Below, one piece after another: positions 7,654 to 57,805 of a stretch of DNA of 64,000 nt (the first letter of the stretch is position 1; each line of letters begins with the position of its first letter). Source of the stretch: Nocardioides sp. R-C-SC26 (GTDB lineage Bacteria > Actinomycetota > Actinomycetes > Propionibacteriales > Nocardioidaceae); contig NZ_JAHRHK010000005.1 of NCBI RefSeq assembly GCF_021246465.1, positions 166,958-230,957 of the forward strand, given 5' to 3'. The position numbers and the translations under genes are program-made. Under the pieces are notes generated by a model, which worked only from the letters and a program-made list of their open reading frames with translations, was not told the DNA's origin and made no database searches.

Positions 7654-7660
7654 CCGACCC

Positions 7661-7698
7661 GGTGGTCGAGGAGGTCGCGCGTCGACCGTCACGAGACC
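7661..7698. repeat. Intergenic imperfect palindrome shared with 18310-18346
   Basis: This 38-bp element starts GGTGGTCGAGGAGGTCGC and ends GACCGTCACGAGACC. A near copy lies at 18310-18346, more than 10 kb away. It is a variant of the GGTGGTCGAG repeat family in which the two ends can pair. Confidence 0.65.
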
Positions 7699-7718
7699 AC
7701 TGCCGAGAGGAGAACCAG

Positions 7719-18300: not shown

Positions 18301-18309
18301 GGCTCTCCC

Positions 18310-18346
18310 GGTGGTCGGGAGGTCGCTCTGTGACCGTCACGAGGCC
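18310..18346. repeat. Intergenic repeat, near copy of 7661-7698
   Basis: It begins GGTGGTCGGGAGGTCGCT and ends GTGACCGTCACGAGGCC, differing from the copy at 7661 by a one-base length change and a few substitutions. It fills the short space between the exporter and the histidine phosphatase gene. Confidence 0.65.
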
Positions 18347-18364
18347 CCTTGGCAGGATGTGCCC

Positions 18365-22339: not shown

Positions 22340-23166
22340 TGCCCACCGTGCTCGACGAACTCCTCGCCGACCTGACCGACGAGAGCGATCGGCTCCGCGC
22401 CGTCGTCGCCGGACTGCCCGACGACGGCGAGGGGTGGCGCCTCGCGACCCCCGCGGCCGGATGGGACGTCGCCGCGCAGATCGCCCACCTGATGTGGACC
22501 GACGAGGTCGCCGCGCTCGCCGCGCACGCGCACGCCGATCAGGCGCCCTGGGACGCGATCGTGCTCACCGCGATGGCCGACCCCACCGGCTTCGTCGACA
22601 CCTGCGCCCTGGAGCTCGCCGCGCTCGACGCCGCCACCTTGCTGCAGCGATGGGACGCCGCACGGCCCGCCCTCGGCGAGGCGCTGCGGCAGGTGCCGGA
22701 GGGTCAGAAGATGCCGTGGTTCGGCCCGCCGATGTCGCCGACCTCGATGGCCACCGCCCGATTCATGGAGACCTGGGCGCACGCGCTCGACGTCTACGAG
22801 GCGCTCGGCGTCGACGCCGAGCACACCGACCGGATCAAGCACGTCGCCCACATCGGCGTGCGCACCCGCGGGTTCTCCTTCGTCACCAACGGTCTCGACG
22901 TGCCCGACGTCGAGCCGCGGATCGAGCTGACAGCGCCGAGTGGCGCCGTCTGGAGCTGGGGCCCCGACGATGCGGCGGAGCGGGTCGACGGCTCTGCTGT
23001 GGACTTCTGCCTCCTGGTGACTCAGCGCGTCCACCGCGCCGACACCGACCTGGTGGCGACGGGACCGGGTGCCGATGCGTGGCTCGACATCGCCCAGTGC
23101 TTCGCCGGGCCCCCTGGTGCGGGGCGCGAGCCCGGGCGTGACGGTGGAGCGGAGGGCGGTCGATGA
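22339..23166 (+). CDS. TIGR03084-like DinB/mycothiol-dependent metal-binding protein
   Basis: 275 residues. It begins with the MDMPI/DinB-type four-helix domain: TPAAGWDVAAQIAHLMWTDE with the first metal His, and later MATARFMETWAHALDVYEAL with another. The C-terminal ~90 residues form the small domain of TIGR03084-type proteins. Relatives include mycothiol-dependent maleylpyruvate isomerase, but this subgroup has no proven reaction. Its place in the operon suggests a role with a CoA or thiol conjugate. It overlaps the next gene by four bases (ATGA). Confidence 0.82.
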   Translation: MPTVLDELLADLTDESDRLRAVVAGLPDDGEGWRLATPAAGWDVAAQIAHLMWTDEVAALAAHAHADQAPWDAIVLTAMADPTGFVDTCALELAALDAATLLQRWDAARPALGEALRQVPEGQKMPWFGPPMSPTSMATARFMETWAHALDVYEALGVDAEHTDRIKHVAHIGVRTRGFSFVTNGLDVPDVEPRIELTAPSGAVWSWGPDDAAERVDGSAVDFCLLVTQRVHRADTDLVATGPGADAWLDIAQCFAGPPGAGREPGRDGGAEGGR

Positions 23167-25022
23167 CGACGTCGGACTCGGGGGGTTTCGAGACGCTCGC
23201 TGGCGCTCGCTCCTCAACCACCGGGGGGACGGTCATCGAGCCTGTCGAGATGGGGGTCTCGGCAAGCTCGACCACCGGGGGGACGGCCGGCGGAGTGATC
23301 CGGGTCGCCAACTGCTCGGGCTTCTACGGCGACCGCCTCCGCGCGATGCGTGAGCAGCTCGAGGGTGGGCCGCTGGACGTCGTCACCGGCGACTACCTCG
23401 CCGAGCTCACCATGCTGATCCTGGGCAAGGACACGATGAAGGACGCCCGCCTCGGATACGCGCGCACCTTCGTCACGCAGGTGGAGGACTGCCTTGGCCT
23501 GGCGCTGGAACGTGGCGTGAAGATCGTCAGCAACGCCGGCGGACTCAACCCGTCCGGGCTCGCCGACCGACTGCGCGAGGTCGCCCGGGGTCTCGGTCTG
23601 GACCCCGCCATCGCTCACGTCGAGGGCGACGACCTCCGTTCACGCGCCGCCGAGCTCGGCCTGGACGGCGCGCTCACCGCCAACGCCTATCTCGGCGGCT
23701 TCGGCATCGCCGCCGCCCTGCGCGAGGGCGCCGACATCGTCGTCACCGGCCGCGTCACCGACGCCTCGGTCGTCGTCGGTCCGGCCATCGCGCATTTCGG
23801 ATGGACGCCGCGCGACTACGACGCCCTGGCGGGAGCCGTCGTCGCCGGACACGTCATCGAGTGCGGCACTCAGGCGACGGGTGGCAACTTCTCCGGCTTC
23901 ACCTCGCTGCCGATGGCGGCGCTCGGCAGTCCGCTCGGATTCCCGATCGCCGAGATCGCCGCCGATGGCTCCAGCGTCATCACCAAGCACGAGGGCACCG
24001 GGGGCGCCGTCACCGTCGACACCGTCACCGCCCAGCTGGTCTATGAGATCCAGTCCACGCGCTACCTGAACCCCGACGTCACCACGCAGCTGGACTCCCT
24101 CCAGCTCACCCAGGACGGCGACGACCGCGTCGCGATCACGGGCGTGCGGGGCGACGCGCCGCCCGAGACGCTCAAGGTCTGCGTCAACTCCCTCGGCGGG
24201 TTCCGCAACTCGATGGAGCTGGTGCTCACCGGGCTCGACATCGAGGCCAAGGCCGACTGGGTGCAGTCCCAGCTCGACGGCGCGTTCAGTGCCGCCGAGG
24301 TCGTGTGGACCCGGTCCTCCCTCCCACCGGCCGACGCCGACACCGAGGAGGGCGCCTCGACCCTGCTGCGCGTCACCGTCAAGGATCCCGAGGCGGGCCC
24401 CTGCGGCAAGGCGTTCACCGCGCCCTTGGTGGAGATCGCCCTCGGGTCGTACCCGGGCTTCACGATGACGACGCCTCCCGGGCCACCGTCGCCGTTCGGC
24501 GTCTACCGGGCCGCCTACGTCCCGCGCGACGCCGTGGAGCACACGGTGGTGCACCCGGACGGACGCCGCGAGGTGATCGCCGACCCCACCGACTTCGGTG
24601 CCGTCGCCGACGGACTCGGCCGCCGCCCCTCGCCGTACCCGGCACCGATCGACTCGATCACGCGCCGGATGCCGCTGGGCACCTTCGTACATGCCCGGTC
24701 GGGCGACAAGGGCGGCGACGCCAACCTCGGCTTGTGGGTCGCCCACGACGGCAGCAGCGACGAGACCTACACCGCGCGCGTCACCTGGCTCACCAAGCTG
24801 ATCACGCCGCGCAAGGTCCGGGAGCTGATCCCCGAGGCGGCCGATCTGCCCGAGGACGCCGTCGACGTCTACGTGCTGCCGAACCTCGGTGGCGTCAACG
24901 TCGTGATCCGCGGGCTCCTCGGCGACGGCGTCGCGGCATCGACCCGGTTCGACCCTCAGGCCAAGGGCCTGGGGGAGTGGGTGCGCTCGCGCATCGTGCA
25001 CGTGCAGGACCACCTGGTGTGA
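23163..25022 (+). CDS. AtuA-like acyclic terpene utilization family protein (DUF1446)
   Basis: 619 residues. Residues ~43 to 480 match the AtuA/DUF1446 family (VANCSGFYGDR, GGLNPSGLADRLREVARGLG, VTGRVTDASVVVGPA, IECGTQATGGNFSGF). The C-terminal ~100 residues are the small AtuA-type domain with ARSGDKGGDANLGLWV. AtuA is needed for citronellol/geraniol use in Pseudomonas, but its reaction is unknown. Residues ~8-42 are not family sequence: they are encoded by dispersed repeat DNA (SSTTGGTVIEPVEMGVSASS). The ATG overlaps the previous stop (ATGA), so this repeat-coded leader seems to be translated. A start at or near residue 43 cannot be excluded, although no ATG or GTG with a ribosome site is obvious. 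Confidence 0.87.
   Translation: MTTSDSGGFETLAGARSSTTGGTVIEPVEMGVSASSTTGGTAGGVIRVANCSGFYGDRLRAMREQLEGGPLDVVTGDYLAELTMLILGKDTMKDARLGYARTFVTQVEDCLGLALERGVKIVSNAGGLNPSGLADRLREVARGLGLDPAIAHVEGDDLRSRAAELGLDGALTANAYLGGFGIAAALREGADIVVTGRVTDASVVVGPAIAHFGWTPRDYDALAGAVVAGHVIECGTQATGGNFSGFTSLPMAALGSPLGFPIAEIAADGSSVITKHEGTGGAVTVDTVTAQLVYEIQSTRYLNPDVTTQLDSLQLTQDGDDRVAITGVRGDAPPETLKVCVNSLGGFRNSMELVLTGLDIEAKADWVQSQLDGAFSAAEVVWTRSSLPPADADTEEGASTLLRVTVKDPEAGPCGKAFTAPLVEIALGSYPGFTMTTPPGPPSPFGVYRAAYVPRDAVEHTVVHPDGRREVIADPTDFGAVADGLGRRPSPYPAPIDSITRRMPLGTFVHARSGDKGGDANLGLWVAHDGSSDETYTARVTWLTKLITPRKVRELIPEAADLPEDAVDVYVLPNLGGVNVVIRGLLGDGVAASTRFDPQAKGLGEWVRSRIVHVQDHLV
23184..23290. repeat. Dispersed repeat within the start of the AtuA-like gene
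   Basis: Contains GGTCATCGAGCCTGTCGAGA, then TCTCGGCAAGCTCGACCACC, preceded by a TCGAGACGCTCGCTGGCGCT variant. These are members of the GGTGGTCGAG / CGAGCTTGTCGAGA family. They keep the reading frame open for about 35 codons. Confidence 0.8.
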
Positions 25023-27854: not shown

Positions 27855-27874
27855 TCGATCGAGCGGCAGCTCTG

Positions 27875-27975
27875 CGAGGAACGAGCAGAGGTGCGAGTGA
27901 GACGAGGTTGAGCGAACCCTGCGACCGAGGAACGAGGTCGCCACGGGTGAGTCGAAACCCAGCGAGAGACGAGGA
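27875..27975. repeat. Intergenic GAGGAACGAG-type repeat
   Basis: The 127-bp space between the carboxylase genes contains two GAGGAACGAG boxes (starting near 27877 and 27928) with GAGTCGAAACCC near the end. The same words occur in the tandem array inside the next gene at 28921-29019. A GACGAGGAG ribosome site for the alpha subunit follows. Confidence 0.6.
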
Positions 27976-27981
27976 GTCAGC

Positions 27982-30000
27982 ATGATCAGGCGCTTGATGG
28001 TCGCCAACCGCGCCGAGATCGCCAGCCGGGTCTTCCGCACCTGCCGTGAGCTGGGCATCGAGACCGTCGCCCTGCACTCCGACGCCGACGCCGCCCTGCC
28101 CTATGTGCGCGAGGCTGACTACGCCGTCCGGCTCCCCGGGAACACCCCGGGCGAGACCTACCTGGACGCCGACGCGGTCATCGCCGCGGCGCAGCGCGCC
28201 GGGGCCGACGCGATCCATCCCGGCTACGGCTTCCTCAGCGAGAACGCCGCTTTCGCGCGCGCCGTCGAGGCGGCCGGCATCACCTGGGTCGGCCCGACAC
28301 CGACCTCGATCGAGCAGATGGGCTCCAAGATCGGCTCCAAGGAGCTGATGCGTGCCGCCGGCGTGCCGGTGCTGGAGGCGCCCGAGTCACCCACCGACGC
28401 CGACCTCCCGTTGCTGGTGAAGGCCAGCGCCGGTGGGGGAGGGCGCGGCATGCGGGTGGTGCGGACCCTCGCCGACCTCGACTCCGAGGTCGAGCGCGCC
28501 TCGGCCGAGGCGGCGTCCGCGTTCGGCGACGGCACCGTGTTCGTCGAGCCCTATGTCGAGCGGGGCCGGCACGTCGAGGTGCAGGTCGTGGGCGACGGCC
28601 GCGGCGGAGTCGCGGTCTTCGGAGAGCGTGACTGCTCGGTGCAACGCCGCCACCAGAAGGTCGTCGAGGAGGCGCCCGCGCCGAACCTTCCCGACGACGT
28701 GCGTGCGGCGTTGCACGAGGCCGCTCGGGCGGCTGCCGCGGCGGTGGACTACCGCGGCGCCGGCACCGTGGAGTTCCTCTACGACCCCGACACCGAACGC
28801 TTCTACTTCCTGGAGATGAACACCCGTCTCCAGGTCGAGCACCCCGTCACCGAGCTGGTGCACGACGTCGACCTGGTGGCGGCTCAGCTCGCCGTCGCCG
28901 AGCGCGGTGAGCTGCCCGCTCCGGTGGTTGCGGAGCGAGGAACGAGCGGCCTTCCGGTGGTTGAGGAGCGAGGAACGAGCGTCCTTCCGGTGGTTGAGGA
29001 GCGAGGAACGAGCGTCTCGAAACCCACCGGGCATGCCATCGAGGTGCGGCTCTACGCCGAGGACCCCGACGCCGACTACCAGCCGCAGAGCGGGCGACTG
29101 ACGACGTTCGAGTTCCCGGTCGAGGACGGCGTCCGGATCGACGCCGGCTTCGAGTCCGGCTCGGAGGTCTCGACCTACTACGACGCGATGCTCGCCAAGG
29201 TCATCGTGTGGTCGCCGACGCGGGAGCAGGCGATCCGCAAGCTCGCCGGCGTCCTCCGTCGTGCCCGCATCCACGGCCTCGCCACGAACCGCCAGCAGCT
29301 GTCGGCGATCCTGGCCGCGCCGGCGTTCGTGGACGGGACGATGACCACCGCACTCCTCTCCGCCCCACTGGCCCCCGGCGATGCGACGCCGCCGCCGGAG
29401 GTGGCCGACCTCGTGGCCGCCGTCGCGCTGGCGGAGTGGCGGCGCGAGCGACGCACGACGCAGGCGGGCATCCCGGTGGCGTGGCGCAACGTGGCGAGCC
29501 AGCCCCAGCGGACGACGTTCGATCTCGGCGGCGAGGAGCGCACCGTCGAGTGGTTCGGCGGCCGCGACGGCTACCGGGCCGCCGACGAGCGCGTCGCCGT
29601 GGTCACGGCGTCCTCGTCCGCCGTCACCGTCGAGGTCGACGGCGTGCGCACGAGCGCCCCGGAGCTCGTCGACGACGGCGGCATCGGGATCCCCCAGGTC
29701 GTGCACGTCGATCTCCCGGGTGGGTCGGTGAGTGCCCGGGTGGTGCCGCGCTTCGTCGATCCGGCGGACGCCGTGGCGAGTGGCAGCCTGCTGGCCCCGA
29801 TGCCAGGAACCGTCGTGCGGGTCGCCGTCGAGCAGGGCCAGCAGGTCGCTGCGGGCGAGGTCGTCCTCGTCCTCGAGGCGATGAAGATGCAGCACAGCGT
29901 GACGGCGCCGACGGACGGCGTCGTGACACAGATCAGTGTCCAGACCGGTGCGCAGGTCGCCGCCGGTGAGGTGATGGCAGTGGTGGAGGAGACGGAATGA
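27982..30000 (+). CDS. Acyl-CoA carboxylase, biotin carboxylase/biotin carrier (alpha) subunit
   Basis: 672 residues. Biotin carboxylase domain: LMVANRAEIASRVFRTCREL start, ATP-grasp loop KASAGGGGRGMRVV, active-site stretch FLEMNTRLQVEHPVTE. The biotin carrier domain is at the C-terminus with the biotinyl Lys in LEAMKMQHS. Residues ~314-350 are unusual: an 11-residue tandem repeat (PVV-ER-GTS) encoded by dispersed repeat DNA replaces the normal short loop before GHAIEVRLYAEDPD. This loop lies at the surface of the third subdomain, so the enzyme may tolerate it. It works with the beta subunit at 26280. Confidence 0.92.
   Translation: MIRRLMVANRAEIASRVFRTCRELGIETVALHSDADAALPYVREADYAVRLPGNTPGETYLDADAVIAAAQRAGADAIHPGYGFLSENAAFARAVEAAGITWVGPTPTSIEQMGSKIGSKELMRAAGVPVLEAPESPTDADLPLLVKASAGGGGRGMRVVRTLADLDSEVERASAEAASAFGDGTVFVEPYVERGRHVEVQVVGDGRGGVAVFGERDCSVQRRHQKVVEEAPAPNLPDDVRAALHEAARAAAAAVDYRGAGTVEFLYDPDTERFYFLEMNTRLQVEHPVTELVHDVDLVAAQLAVAERGELPAPVVAERGTSGLPVVEERGTSVLPVVEERGTSVSKPTGHAIEVRLYAEDPDADYQPQSGRLTTFEFPVEDGVRIDAGFESGSEVSTYYDAMLAKVIVWSPTREQAIRKLAGVLRRARIHGLATNRQQLSAILAAPAFVDGTMTTALLSAPLAPGDATPPPEVADLVAAVALAEWRRERRTTQAGIPVAWRNVASQPQRTTFDLGGEERTVEWFGGRDGYRAADERVAVVTASSSAVTVEVDGVRTSAPELVDDGGIGIPQVVHVDLPGGSVSARVVPRFVDPADAVASGSLLAPMPGTVVRVAVEQGQQVAAGEVVLVLEAMKMQHSVTAPTDGVVTQISVQTGAQVAAGEVMAVVEETE
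28921..29025. repeat. In-frame 33-bp tandem repeat inside the biotin carboxylase gene
   Basis: Three 33-bp units, 28921-28953, 28954-28986 and 28987-29019, each CCGGTGGTTGAGGAGCGAGG then AACGAGCGTCCTT with one or two changes, followed by TCGAAACCC. The period is a multiple of three and encodes PVVEERGTSVL. It belongs to the dispersed repeat family found between genes. Confidence 0.92.
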
Positions 30001-36003: not shown

Positions 36004-37440
36004 TCACCAGGTGCGGACGGCGGGCAGCGTGTGCTGGCCGCCCGGGCGCACCGAGAGGATCTGGTCGACGCCCATCCGCCCGTCGCGGAACGCCATCGAG
36101 CCACCGACGAGGTAGAGCCGCCACACGCGTACGACCTCCTCGCCCACCAACTCGGTGAGACGTTCGATGTTGGCCTCGAAGCGCTCGAGCCACCCCGCCA
36201 CGGTGAGCACGTAGTGCTCGCGCAGCGCGTGGACGTCGCGGACCTCCAGGCCGCCGGCCTCGATCATCCCGACGGTCTCGCCGACCGGCCGCATGTACAT
36301 GTCGGGCGCGATGAACGACTCGATGAACGGCCCGCCGCCGGGCCACTTGCCGGTGCGCGACATCTGCTGAATCAGCACGCGGCCGCCCGGCTTGACCGCC
36401 CGCCGCAGCACCTCGACGTAGGTCGGGTAGTTGCGCTGCCCGACGTGCTCGCCCATCTCGATCGAGCCGACCGCGTCGAAATGGTCGCGCTCAGGCACCT
36501 CGCGGTAGTCCTGCAGCCGGATCTCGACCCTGCCCTCGAGGCCGCGTTCGGCGATCCGGGCGTCGATGAACTTCTTCTGCTCCGCCGCGATCGTCACGCC
36601 GACGACCTGGGCGCCGAAGTGCTCGGCCGCGTGCAGCGAGAGCGATCCCCAGCCGCAGCCGACGTCGAGGAAGCGCATGCCCGGCTCGAGGCCGAGCTTG
36701 GTGCACACCAGCGACAGCTTCGCCGACTGCGCCTCGGTCAGCGGCTGCTCGGGCGCGGAGTGATAGCCCGAGGAGTAGGCCATGTTCTCCTCGAGGATCA
36801 GCGAGTAGAACTCGTTGGAGAGGTCGTAGTGGTGACTGATCGAGCGCCGGTCACGGCTCAGGCTGTGCAGGCGCCCCTTGATCTGGGCCTGGGAGGCCGG
36901 TGCGGCGGGTGGGCGACCGAACGCCCCGATGCCGACGGCGGCCCGCACGGCCTTGGCGATCGCGGACGGCGTGAGCCGCGCACCGCTGAGACCGCGCTGC
37001 TGTGCGACGGCGAAGGCGTAGGTCAGTGCCTTGTCCAGGTTCCAGCCATCGACCTCGGGCACGTCGAGCTCACCGGTGACGTAGGCCTGGGCCGCGCCGA
37101 GCTCACCGGGATGCCACAGCAAGCGGCGCACGGCGTCGGGGGAGTTGAGGACGACGAGGGGGCCATCGGGCGAGCCAGCCTCCGAACCGTCCCAGGCGCG
37201 CAGTCGTACCGGCAGCTCGCCACCGAGGAAGGGCTGGACGGCGGCGGCGAGCTTGGGGGCCACGCCGGTGGCGGGGCCGGGGTTGCGGTGGGCGGTCGGG
37301 TCGCCGGGTTTCGAGACGTCCGGCCTCGTTCCTCGGCCGGACTCCTCAACCACCGGGGTGACGTCCGGCCTCGTTCCTCGGCCGGACTCCTCAACCACCG
37401 AGGCGCGGTCATCGAGCTTGTCGAGATGCCGCTCGTCCAT
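36004..37440 (-). CDS. Cyclopropane-fatty-acid-synthase-type methyltransferase, copy 2
   Basis: 478 residues. Catalytic half from residue ~200: SISHHYDLSNEFYSLILEEN, the SAM motif MRFLDVGCGWGSLSLHAAEH, VGSIEMGEHVGQRNYPTYVE and the C-terminal MYMRPVGETVGMIEAGGLEV. It transfers a methyl group from SAM to an unsaturated phospholipid acyl chain in relatives. The first ~42 residues are not family sequence; they are encoded by dispersed repeat DNA (RHLDKLDDRASVVEESGRGT, then a second VVEESGRGTRPDV). The ATG overlaps the preceding stop (TGATG). Domain homology begins around residue 55. Confidence 0.88.
   Translation of the reverse strand: MDERHLDKLDDRASVVEESGRGTRPDVTPVVEESGRGTRPDVSKPGDPTAHRNPGPATGVAPKLAAAVQPFLGGELPVRLRAWDGSEAGSPDGPLVVLNSPDAVRRLLWHPGELGAAQAYVTGELDVPEVDGWNLDKALTYAFAVAQQRGLSGARLTPSAIAKAVRAAVGIGAFGRPPAAPASQAQIKGRLHSLSRDRRSISHHYDLSNEFYSLILEENMAYSSGYHSAPEQPLTEAQSAKLSLVCTKLGLEPGMRFLDVGCGWGSLSLHAAEHFGAQVVGVTIAAEQKKFIDARIAERGLEGRVEIRLQDYREVPERDHFDAVGSIEMGEHVGQRNYPTYVEVLRRAVKPGGRVLIQQMSRTGKWPGGGPFIESFIAPDMYMRPVGETVGMIEAGGLEVRDVHALREHYVLTVAGWLERFEANIERLTELVGEEVVRVWRLYLVGGSMAFRDGRMGVDQILSVRPGGQHTLPAVRTW
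37315..37437. repeat. Dispersed repeat at the start of the second methyltransferase gene
   Basis: Two identical 41-bp units, 37315-37355 and 37360-37400, separated by four bases (period 45), then CGAGCTTGTCGAGATGCC next to the start codon. The unit contains GTTCCTCGGCCGGACTCCTC. It encodes the VVEESGRGTRPDV repeat. Confidence 0.9.
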
Positions 37441-38726: not shown

Positions 38727-40897
38727 CGAACTCCCTCCTGATGATGAGTGGGACGAGGACGGATGGGCAGGCGTCGCAGCCACAGCCAGATGCCGTGTGC
38801 CCGGATGAGTGCGGACCCTCGCAGGGCTGCGGGGGCGGCGCGCCAGGGTCGGACGTCGGAACGTCTGCCCGTCAACGACGCGCTGAACCGGGCTCGACCA
38901 TCGATCTCGTCGTCGGTCCGGAGCTCGACGACGACCTGGAGCCGGTCGGTGGGCGGCGGCACAACGAGGTCGTAGGTCCCGCCGGTGCCGTGGAAGGGCG
39001 AGACGTACATCGCCTTGTCGATGCTCGCGCAGCCCGCGGGGTCGGGAAAGACCAGGTAGGCGTGGCGGTCGCCGTAGGTGTTGTGCACCTCGACGACGGT
39101 CGCGGTGAGCGATCCAGCGGTGTCGAAGCACCAGAACACCGAGATCGGGTTGAAGCAGTAGCCCAGGGCGCGCGGTTGTGCGGCCATCAGGATCCGGCCG
39201 CGAGTGAACGCGACGTCGTTCCCGCGCAGGAAGGCCACGACGTTCTCGCGAATCGTGCGTTCGGGGTCGCCGAGGTGATCGCGGGCCTCGAACCGGCCCA
39301 GGAGGCCGTGGTCGGGCAGGTCGTCGAGGTCGACGACCCAGGTGTGCGACCGGTGGGTGAAGCGTCGCTCCATCGGGTGCCGGCGGGTGTGCGTGATCGT
39401 GGTGGCATAGACGCCGGTCATCGAGCGCGGCCCGGTCATCGAGCTTGTCGAGATGGGGGTCTCGACAAGCTCGACCACCGAGAGACCCTGCTCGATCACC
39501 GAGGGACCCCGCTCGACCACCGTGGAGACGGCAGGCGCCTCGGTGGTCGAGGAGGGTCGAGGACCGAGGCCCGTCTCGAGACCTCCTGCCGCGACGTCGG
39601 TCTCCGGCCACGGCAGGCCCAGCTTCGTGACGGCGGCCAGCCCCGAGCGCGCGCCGTCCTCGTGGAAACCCCAGCCGTGGTAGGCGCCGGCGAACACGAT
39701 GCGGTCGGAGTCGATCTCGGGGAGCCGTGCCTGGGCAGCCACGGAGGCCGGGTTGTACAGCGGGTGCTCGTACTCCATCCGGTCGATCACGGTGTTCGGG
39801 TCGACCAGGTGCTCTCCGCCCAGGGTCACGAGGTAGTGGATATCGGTGTCGAGCCGTTGCAGGCGCGTGAGGTCGTAGGTGACCACGACGCCACCGTCCG
39901 CGCTCGCCGTCGAGCCGGCCGGACGGCGGAAGTTCCAGCTCGCTCGCGCGTCGGACGCCTGCGGGAGCAGAGAGGTGTCGGTGTGGAGCAGCGCTGTGTT
40001 CGGCGAGTACGGCATGGCACCGAGCACCTCGCGCTGCGCGGTGGTCGGCTCGGCGAGCAGCGAGAGCGCGTGGCTCGGATGCGTGGCGATGACGACGGCG
40101 TCGAAGGCATGGGTGGCGCCGTTTCCGTCGGTGATCGCGACCCCGGACGGCGTGGCGAGCACCGAGGTGACCTTGGTGCCGGTGCGCACGTCCTGCACGA
40201 CCGCGCCGACGCGCTGGACGTAGCTGTGCGATCCGCCGGTCACGGTGCGCCACTGCGGGGAGCCGAAGACGCCGAGCATGCCGTGGTGCTGCAGGAAGGT
40301 GAAGAGGTAGCGAGCCGGGTAGTCCAGTGCGACCTCGGGATCGCACGACCACACGGCCGCGACGAGGGGCTCCATGAAGTGCCTGCGGAAGTAGGCGGTG
40401 AACCGGCCATCGTCCAGGAACTCCCGCAACGTCCGCTGATCACCTGCGGCGCCGTCGTCGGCCAGGAGCGCCTTGGCACGGCGGTGGAACCGGGGGATCT
40501 CCGCCAGCATCGCCAGGTAGCGCGGGCGGCGGAGGTTCGCCGACGTCGGGAAGAGACCGCGACGGCCCAGCGCACCAGCCCACTCGAGCCCGGAGGCGTC
40601 GTCGCGGATCGACATGGACATCTCCGAGGGCTGCGTCGCGACGTCGAGCTCGGCGAAGAGCCGCAGCAGCACCGGGTACGTGCGCGGGTTGTGCACGATG
40701 AAACCGGTGTCGATGGCGAGTGTCCGCTCGCCCTCCGAGACGCGGTGGGTGTCGGCGTGACCGCCGAGCCGGTCATCGGCCTCGAAGAGCGTGACGTGCG
40801 CGGTGCGCGAGGCGACGTAAGCCGCGGTCAGGCCGGCGACGCCGCTGCCGACGACCGCGATACGGCGCGGCGAACCGGTGGAGTCGTGGCCCGTCAT
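38723..40897 (-). CDS. FAD-dependent oxidoreductase fused to DUF1365 through a repeat-coded linker
   Basis: 724 residues in one open frame. Residues 1-~438 are an amine-oxidase-type flavoprotein (IAVVGSGVAGLTAAYVASRT, FEADDRLGGHADTH, IVFAGAYHGWGFHEDGARSG), like Rv0449c/TmsA, the proposed 10-methylene reductase. Residues ~493-724 are a complete DUF1365 protein (YATTITHTRRHPMERRFTHR, LGYCFNPISVFWCFD), like Rv0448c. In relatives these are separate adjacent genes. Residues ~439-492 come from dispersed repeat DNA that bridges the former stop and start. ATG at 39421 could still start DUF1365 separately. Starts three bases after the rskA stop. Confidence 0.88.
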   Translation of the reverse strand: MTGHDSTGSPRRIAVVGSGVAGLTAAYVASRTAHVTLFEADDRLGGHADTHRVSEGERTLAIDTGFIVHNPRTYPVLLRLFAELDVATQPSEMSMSIRDDASGLEWAGALGRRGLFPTSANLRRPRYLAMLAEIPRFHRRAKALLADDGAAGDQRTLREFLDDGRFTAYFRRHFMEPLVAAVWSCDPEVALDYPARYLFTFLQHHGMLGVFGSPQWRTVTGGSHSYVQRVGAVVQDVRTGTKVTSVLATPSGVAITDGNGATHAFDAVVIATHPSHALSLLAEPTTAQREVLGAMPYSPNTALLHTDTSLLPQASDARASWNFRRPAGSTASADGGVVVTYDLTRLQRLDTDIHYLVTLGGEHLVDPNTVIDRMEYEHPLYNPASVAAQARLPEIDSDRIVFAGAYHGWGFHEDGARSGLAAVTKLGLPWPETDVAAGGLETGLGPRPSSTTEAPAVSTVVERGPSVIEQGLSVVELVETPISTSSMTGPRSMTGVYATTITHTRRHPMERRFTHRSHTWVVDLDDLPDHGLLGRFEARDHLGDPERTIRENVVAFLRGNDVAFTRGRILMAAQPRALGYCFNPISVFWCFDTAGSLTATVVEVHNTYGDRHAYLVFPDPAGCASIDKAMYVSPFHGTGGTYDLVVPPPTDRLQVVVELRTDDEIDGRARFSASLTGRRSDVRPWRAAPAALRGSALIRAHGIWLWLRRLPIRPRPTHHQEGVR
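39421..39582. repeat. Dispersed repeat block forming the protein linker
   Basis: Contains the perfect hairpin CGAGCTTGTCGAGA (39440-39453) / TCTCGACAAGCTCG (39460-39473), then several CTCGA(C/T)CACCG(A/T)G units near 39471, 39492 and 39511, and GGTGGTCGAGGAGGGTCGAG at 39542. All belong to the family seen between genes elsewhere. Confidence 0.9.
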
Positions 40898-57695: not shown

Positions 57696-57760
57696 TCGAG
57701 CGGCCCGGTGGTCGAGCGGCCCGGTGGTCGAGCGGCCCGGTGGTCGAGCTTGTCGAGACC
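57695..57760. repeat. 16-bp tandem repeat plus CGAGCTTGTCGAGA unit
   Basis: Three consecutive copies of (G/A)TCGAGCGGCCCGGTG at 57695-57710, 57711-57726 and 57727-57742, then GTCGAGCTTGTCGAGACC (57743-57760). It starts directly after the hydrolase stop. The unit length is not a multiple of three. Confidence 0.9.
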
Positions 57761-57805
57761 CTCGGCACGCTCGATGCCCGCGCCCGATGATGCTTGGATG
57801 GCGCG

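Follow-up and report, generated by a model that had tools for sequence, protein, structure and literature searches.

The DNA that we analysed (the window) is a stretch of 64,000 nucleotides from a Nocardioides genome. Its forward strand carries, at 27982–30000, a gene for the alpha subunit of an acyl-CoA carboxylase (biotin carboxylase and biotin carrier; 672 amino acids), identified by its open reading frame and by NCBIfam and PDB matches to biotin carboxylases and the alpha subunits of methylcrotonyl- and propionyl-CoA carboxylase. A carboxyltransferase gene lies on one side and an acyl-CoA dehydrogenase gene on the other, and conservation of the gene extends through the genus, with an orthologue in 180 of 197 Nocardioides genomes. 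Both TRF and a repeat search confirmed that the gene contains the three 33-bp units (28920–29018, forward strand) reported in the original prediction, with 96% matches. According to the array layout, units 1 (28920–28952) and 2 (28953–28985) each consist of the left part of a palindromic element without its right arm. The third 33-bp unit (28986–29018) runs on into the right arm TCTCGAAACCCACCG, which completes the element at 28986–29028 (covariance model match at 28988–29027, 52.8 bits, E = 6.4e-10). The predicted PVV-ER-GTS repeats are encoded in the frame of the gene (PVVAERGTSGL, PVVEERGTSVL and PVVEERGTSVSKPT), and a 24-mer of the array, searched at ≤3 mismatches, gave three matches compared with 0.00 in shuffled sequences. 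Exact copies of GGTGGTTGAGGAG are found in the window at 28956 and 28989 and, on the opposite strand, at 23210, 37342, and 37387. At the protein level, the inserted loop extends over approximately residues 312–350 (28915–29031) in the AlphaFold2 model and the orthologue alignment. Copies and arrays of the element also lie at several contig ends, so copy numbers may be off. However, the carboxylase array lies inside its contig between unique flanks, point changes distinguish its units, the reading frame stays open across it, and in-frame arrays of a similar kind are present at other loci and in another genome; an assembly or sequencing error is therefore a highly improbable source of the array.

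The element is an imperfect palindrome of about 40–50 bp (∼38–56 bp across copies), and its copies in the genome share CGGTGGT(T/C)GAGG ... (T/A)CGA(A/G)ACC with a variable hairpin in between. As predicted, the repeat is dispersed: in the genome (3.7 Mb, 106 contigs), a DNA search returned 51 matches, a two-arm pattern returned 45 (compared with 0 for the reversed control), and a covariance model, with 150 candidates scored, returned at least 147 copies at E ≤ 0.01. Because single-strand folding of individual copies scored little above shuffles, one subtype excepted, it is covariation that makes the case for a stem. Here, 26 cells were changed on both sides compared with 12.7 in shuffles (0 of 500 shuffles as high), and the structure paired 86% of cells compared with 33–51% in slid controls. 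The outer T-A pair is replaced by C-G in 8 of 27 distinct sequences, and an inner pair flips from G-C to C-G in 12. The same model detected the element in 29 of 37 Nocardioides genomes, the richest of which have at least 108 matches each, compared with 0 of 21 genomes from other genera of the order. The array core GAGGAGCGAGGAACGAG has an exact match elsewhere in the genome only at hisH, as might be expected if the repeat had been born in the carboxylase gene and had then spread outward, but the ≥147 genome copies include other stem variants and many copies are found in congeners whose carboxylase is repeat-free, which makes an origin in this gene barely credible. Four element-bearing loci gave no match at the Rfam gathering score, with only a sub-threshold chance match near the array locus. 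A literature search, with most subscription journals outside its coverage, found no published work on the element or its sequence in Nocardioides.

The original prediction also placed the DNA words of the array between genes at 27875–27975. There, GAGGAACGAG is present twice (27876 and 27927), as claimed, but GGTGGTTGAGGAG is absent, and the sequence is a degenerate relative rather than an identical copy of the repeat. This 5′ intergenic gap contains two degenerate hairpins with the core GAGGAACGAG (27870–27960, forward strand; CTCTGC..GCAGAG and GCGACC..GGTCGC), both below the covariance model threshold, and the arm remnants GGTTGAG (27906) and CGAAACC (27953). Elsewhere in the window, a complete copy lies on the reverse strand near the 5′ end of the ORF listed from 23163 (23181–23223, 64.3 bits), and another on that strand is part of a 45-bp tandem array detected by TRF (37304–37400, 49.6 bits). 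On the forward strand are copies at 7660–7701 (51.4 bits) and 39541–39586 (54.7 bits; called in frame within an ORF of the other strand) and a weaker copy at 18309–18349 (33.7 bits). A perfect 16-bp tandem repeat of TCGAGCGGCCCGGTGG (3.4 units, 57696–57749) adjoins a short-form match to the element at 57738–57763.

Genome-wide, the copies group into 111 blocks, 10 of which (∼10%) lie in frame within genes, where "in gene" is defined by codon statistics and open frames. All 26 blocks between opposed genes are between convergent genes, and none is between divergent genes. The proposal that an intergenic repeat entered a gene in frame is borne out with respect to the entry, with the correction that the element is mainly, not solely, intergenic, and the carboxylase insertion is one of many such cases, not unique. 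In-gene copies are found in unrelated genes, including those for RecB-like, CobN, lipoyl E2, HisH, AAA+, DNA ligase, and TetR proteins and an APS-kinase/phosphatase ORF, among others; the lipoyl E2 and AAA+ cases, slightly under the automatic in-gene threshold, were read from their translations. The RecB-like gene carries two separate in-frame insertions (G000:C23:78624–78766 and 79386–79437), one of which is a 33-bp array (PVVEERARVVS three times plus a full copy) directly after the VDYKTN nuclease motif. In the lipoyl E2 gene (2-oxoacid dehydrogenase acyltransferase), the linker contains an in-frame 33-bp array (PVVEERAPVVS; G000:C96:84009–84124). The interval between the hisB stop and HisH (G000:C1:125195–125336) holds an array of four 33-bp units whose core is that of the carboxylase array. 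Most congeners start hisH on a GTG that overlaps the hisB stop; this start is lost here, and the visible in-frame starts are GTGs of the repeat. As read from the sequence, HisH most likely starts on a GTG within the repeat.

Most tandem arrays of the long element share one architecture, in which the left part plus a few bases is repeated and the final copy is complete. The left boundary of the units is fixed (CCGG), and periods range from 25 to 65 across the stretches around element copies. Arrays inside intact genes have periods of 33, 33, 33, and 39, with hisH adding another of 33. Thus, counting hisH, the period is a multiple of three in 5 of 5 arrays in genes compared with 6 of 24 elsewhere; the Fisher p value of 0.0016 counts in one further coding array, of 27 bp, which does not consist of the element. 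The comparison is biased in that a frame-shifting array would escape being called coding, and the result therefore shows that the surviving arrays are frame-neutral, not how strong selection is. Simple slippage was not accepted as the sole source of the arrays, because the bases preceding unit 1 match the junction bases in some arrays, as a fork that stalls in the hairpin and slips back over the flank and the left part would lead one to expect, but give no clear match in others, including the carboxylase array. Slippage stimulated by the hairpin is the most likely source of the arrays, at about an even chance. Copies or arrays at or near the ends of contigs C21, C23, C38, C66, and C75 suggest that the element breaks the assembly there and that array lengths are underestimated.

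The original prediction proposed modelling the loop on a biotin carboxylase structure. In an AlphaFold2 model built with the orthologue alignment (mean pLDDT 84.5), the array is predicted disorder between well-folded flanks: residues 315–344, at a pLDDT of about 31–51, are the only longer stretch below 50, with values of ∼90 on both sides. Because this stretch lies between a well-modelled helix (298–308) and a well-modelled strand (351–358), the latter carrying the conserved EVRLYAED, the array most probably projects from the protein as a disordered loop that would leave the fold intact. The inserted peptide itself is most likely without function. Insertions of Rickettsia palindromic elements (RPE) are presumably likewise tolerated in surface loops.

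As had been predicted, relatives have a shorter loop at the array site, on which the orthologue alignment and a broad homologue sample agree. Among the first 24 orthologues of the genus, most have a loop of 10–20 residues between LAVAEG and GHAIEVRLYAED. The same loop conserved in distant homologues devoid of the repeat, the finding named in advance as contradicting the insertion, was not what we observed: in the 70 readable of 80 broadly sampled homologues, 33–43 residues separate NTRLQVEH from the following strand, and the loop is short and free of any such repeat. Within the genus, sampled at one genome per species (closest orthologue 87% identical over the N-terminal 310 residues), a model match of ≥20 bits falls in the loop at 19 of 122 loci. 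This amounts to 19 matches in 5.95 kb of loop compared with 14 in the remaining 139.7 kb of gene sequence, a 32-fold higher density. The insertions occur in either orientation and in several phases; they fall into at least five orientation/phase classes, which are dispersed across the tree, and their peptides are unrelated between species (PVVEERGTS, VEEVALQPSRDP, GFETGLRPSSTTG, and others). On a quick tree of the flanking sequence, we counted 17 label changes, of which at least eight are forced across well-supported branches, and the pattern of the loop-insertion trait is indistinguishable from random scatter. Related species thus have insertions of this repeat class that arose separately, and the loop looks like a recurrent landing site. 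In another species (G003, L012:2479–2652), the same loop holds an independent 30-bp tandem array (GHSTSEAGTA) and a further copy. The carboxylase also has a second insertion hotspot in the linker that follows the biotin carboxylase domain, ∼100 codons downstream of the loop, where the in-gene matches outside the loop gather (L022:2773–2815, L342:523–565, L321:529–571, L327:541–580, L319:524–563, L331:535–574, and others).

The strong enrichment at one short place, together with the fixed CCGG left boundary of the units, could also be understood if the hotspot reflected a target-site preference of the mobilising machinery rather than structural tolerance, with the insertion otherwise as we describe it. 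However, the insertions differ in orientation and phase, the loop DNA is unconserved between species, and repeat-free orthologues vary in loop length as well, and we regard such a preference as unlikely. Alternatively, selection in Nocardioides may repeatedly have favoured an adaptive, functional loop, e.g. a flexible tether or a binding segment, in keeping with the occupancy and density given above and with an array kept without stop or frameshift. Yet most orthologues lack an insert, the insert is predicted to be disordered, and the peptides are wholly different between species because orientation and phase differ, whereas the second hotspot in the downstream linker fits mere tolerance; a functional loop is accordingly very unlikely.

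Identity to the dispersed family, the short loops of homologues, the open frame, and the predicted disorder together show that a copy landed in the loop. We consider it very probable that the loop arose by in-frame insertion of a REP-like palindromic element, followed by duplication to three units, and that it was tolerated in the carboxylase. Under this explanation, an element abundant in Nocardioides would have landed, in a stop-free phase, in an insertion-tolerant surface loop. Two duplications of the segment that reaches from the left boundary into the hairpin would have followed, in 33-bp steps that kept the frame, with the final copy retaining the right arm. We infer that these duplications came from replication forks that stalled at the hairpin and slipped back over the flank and the left part. 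Copies that break genes would be purged by selection, and the survivors would be those in mostly intergenic positions, often between convergent genes, and the frame-neutral copies in loops and linkers. With the corrections given above, the reading of the array in the original prediction is supported by these sequence comparisons as right in essence.

With regard to known systems, the element has the generic properties of a REP, being a short, high-copy palindrome located mostly between genes and 3′ of them. The GTAG/CGTC-tagged REP superfamilies, which have an unpaired GTAG or CGTC at one stem end, are similarly short, abundant, and hairpin-forming, often occur as inverted pairs, lie mainly between convergent or unidirectional genes, and are in some cases in frame in ORFs (Di Nocera et al. 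2013, PMC3733652). That study describes REPs inside ORFs in frame, with clusters encoding 43–82 amino acids and with recB insertions at roughly matching positions in two species of Xanthomonas. It also describes CGTC REPs that have no dedicated transposase and links the Rickettsia elements RPE-4 and RPE-6 to CGTC repeats (PMC3733652). In contrast to those REPs, the Nocardioides element has no GTAG end, and its CGTC is not clearly terminal: it is present in most copies, but between the inner stem and the outer arm, and the GGGCCTCG subtype lacks it. Further differences are a longer two-part stem, arrays of the left part closed by one complete copy, and one loop hit in many species. The element is also actinobacterial, and the main text of PMC3733652 names neither Nocardioides nor Actinobacteria. 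RPE are palindromic repeats in frame in many unrelated protein genes (PMC3733652), and the Nocardioides element resembles them in its behaviour, with in-frame insertions in several unrelated genes. Unlike RPE, it is intergenic in most of its copies and often amplified in tandem, and its host is a free-living high-GC actinobacterium rather than an organism with a reduced intracellular genome. The 15 inverted pairs in this genome, with a regular ∼25–27 bp between partners, recall REPINs and BIMEs. However, the sequence between the partners is not conserved, and no RAYT-type transposase (Y1_Tnp, PF01797) was found in 25 genomes (this one and 24 relatives), with control matches in 5 named genomes. 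A transposase-free, hairpin-driven system, in which replication slippage and template switching alone produce both new copies and tandem growth, and in which protein loops serve as a genus-wide reservoir where the repeats are amplified and kept as coding sequence, with new start codons (hisH) among the gains, is conceivable, yet decidedly unlikely. In its behaviour, the element belongs with intragenic REPs and RPE and is an actinobacterial variant of them.

The single carboxylase case is ordinary for its class, and the interest lies in the genus-wide recurrence at one loop and in the in-frame arrays. They widen the range of intragenic REP-like elements to a large free-living actinobacterial genus, with in-frame tandem growth within genes, and offer a natural experiment on selfish palindromic DNA turning into coding sequence: one enzyme loop in more than 100 orthologues, with many independent insertions of one element class in differing orientations and phases and with repeat-free orthologues as controls. 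For annotation, the peptides PVVEERGTS, GLETxxxxSSTT, and VEEVAxxPSRDP in Nocardioides proteins should be read as repeat-derived and not as conserved motifs. In the window, two copies of the element open the ORF listed from 23163 (23163–23280; RSSTTGGTVIEPVEM...SASSTTGG), whose true start may be further downstream.
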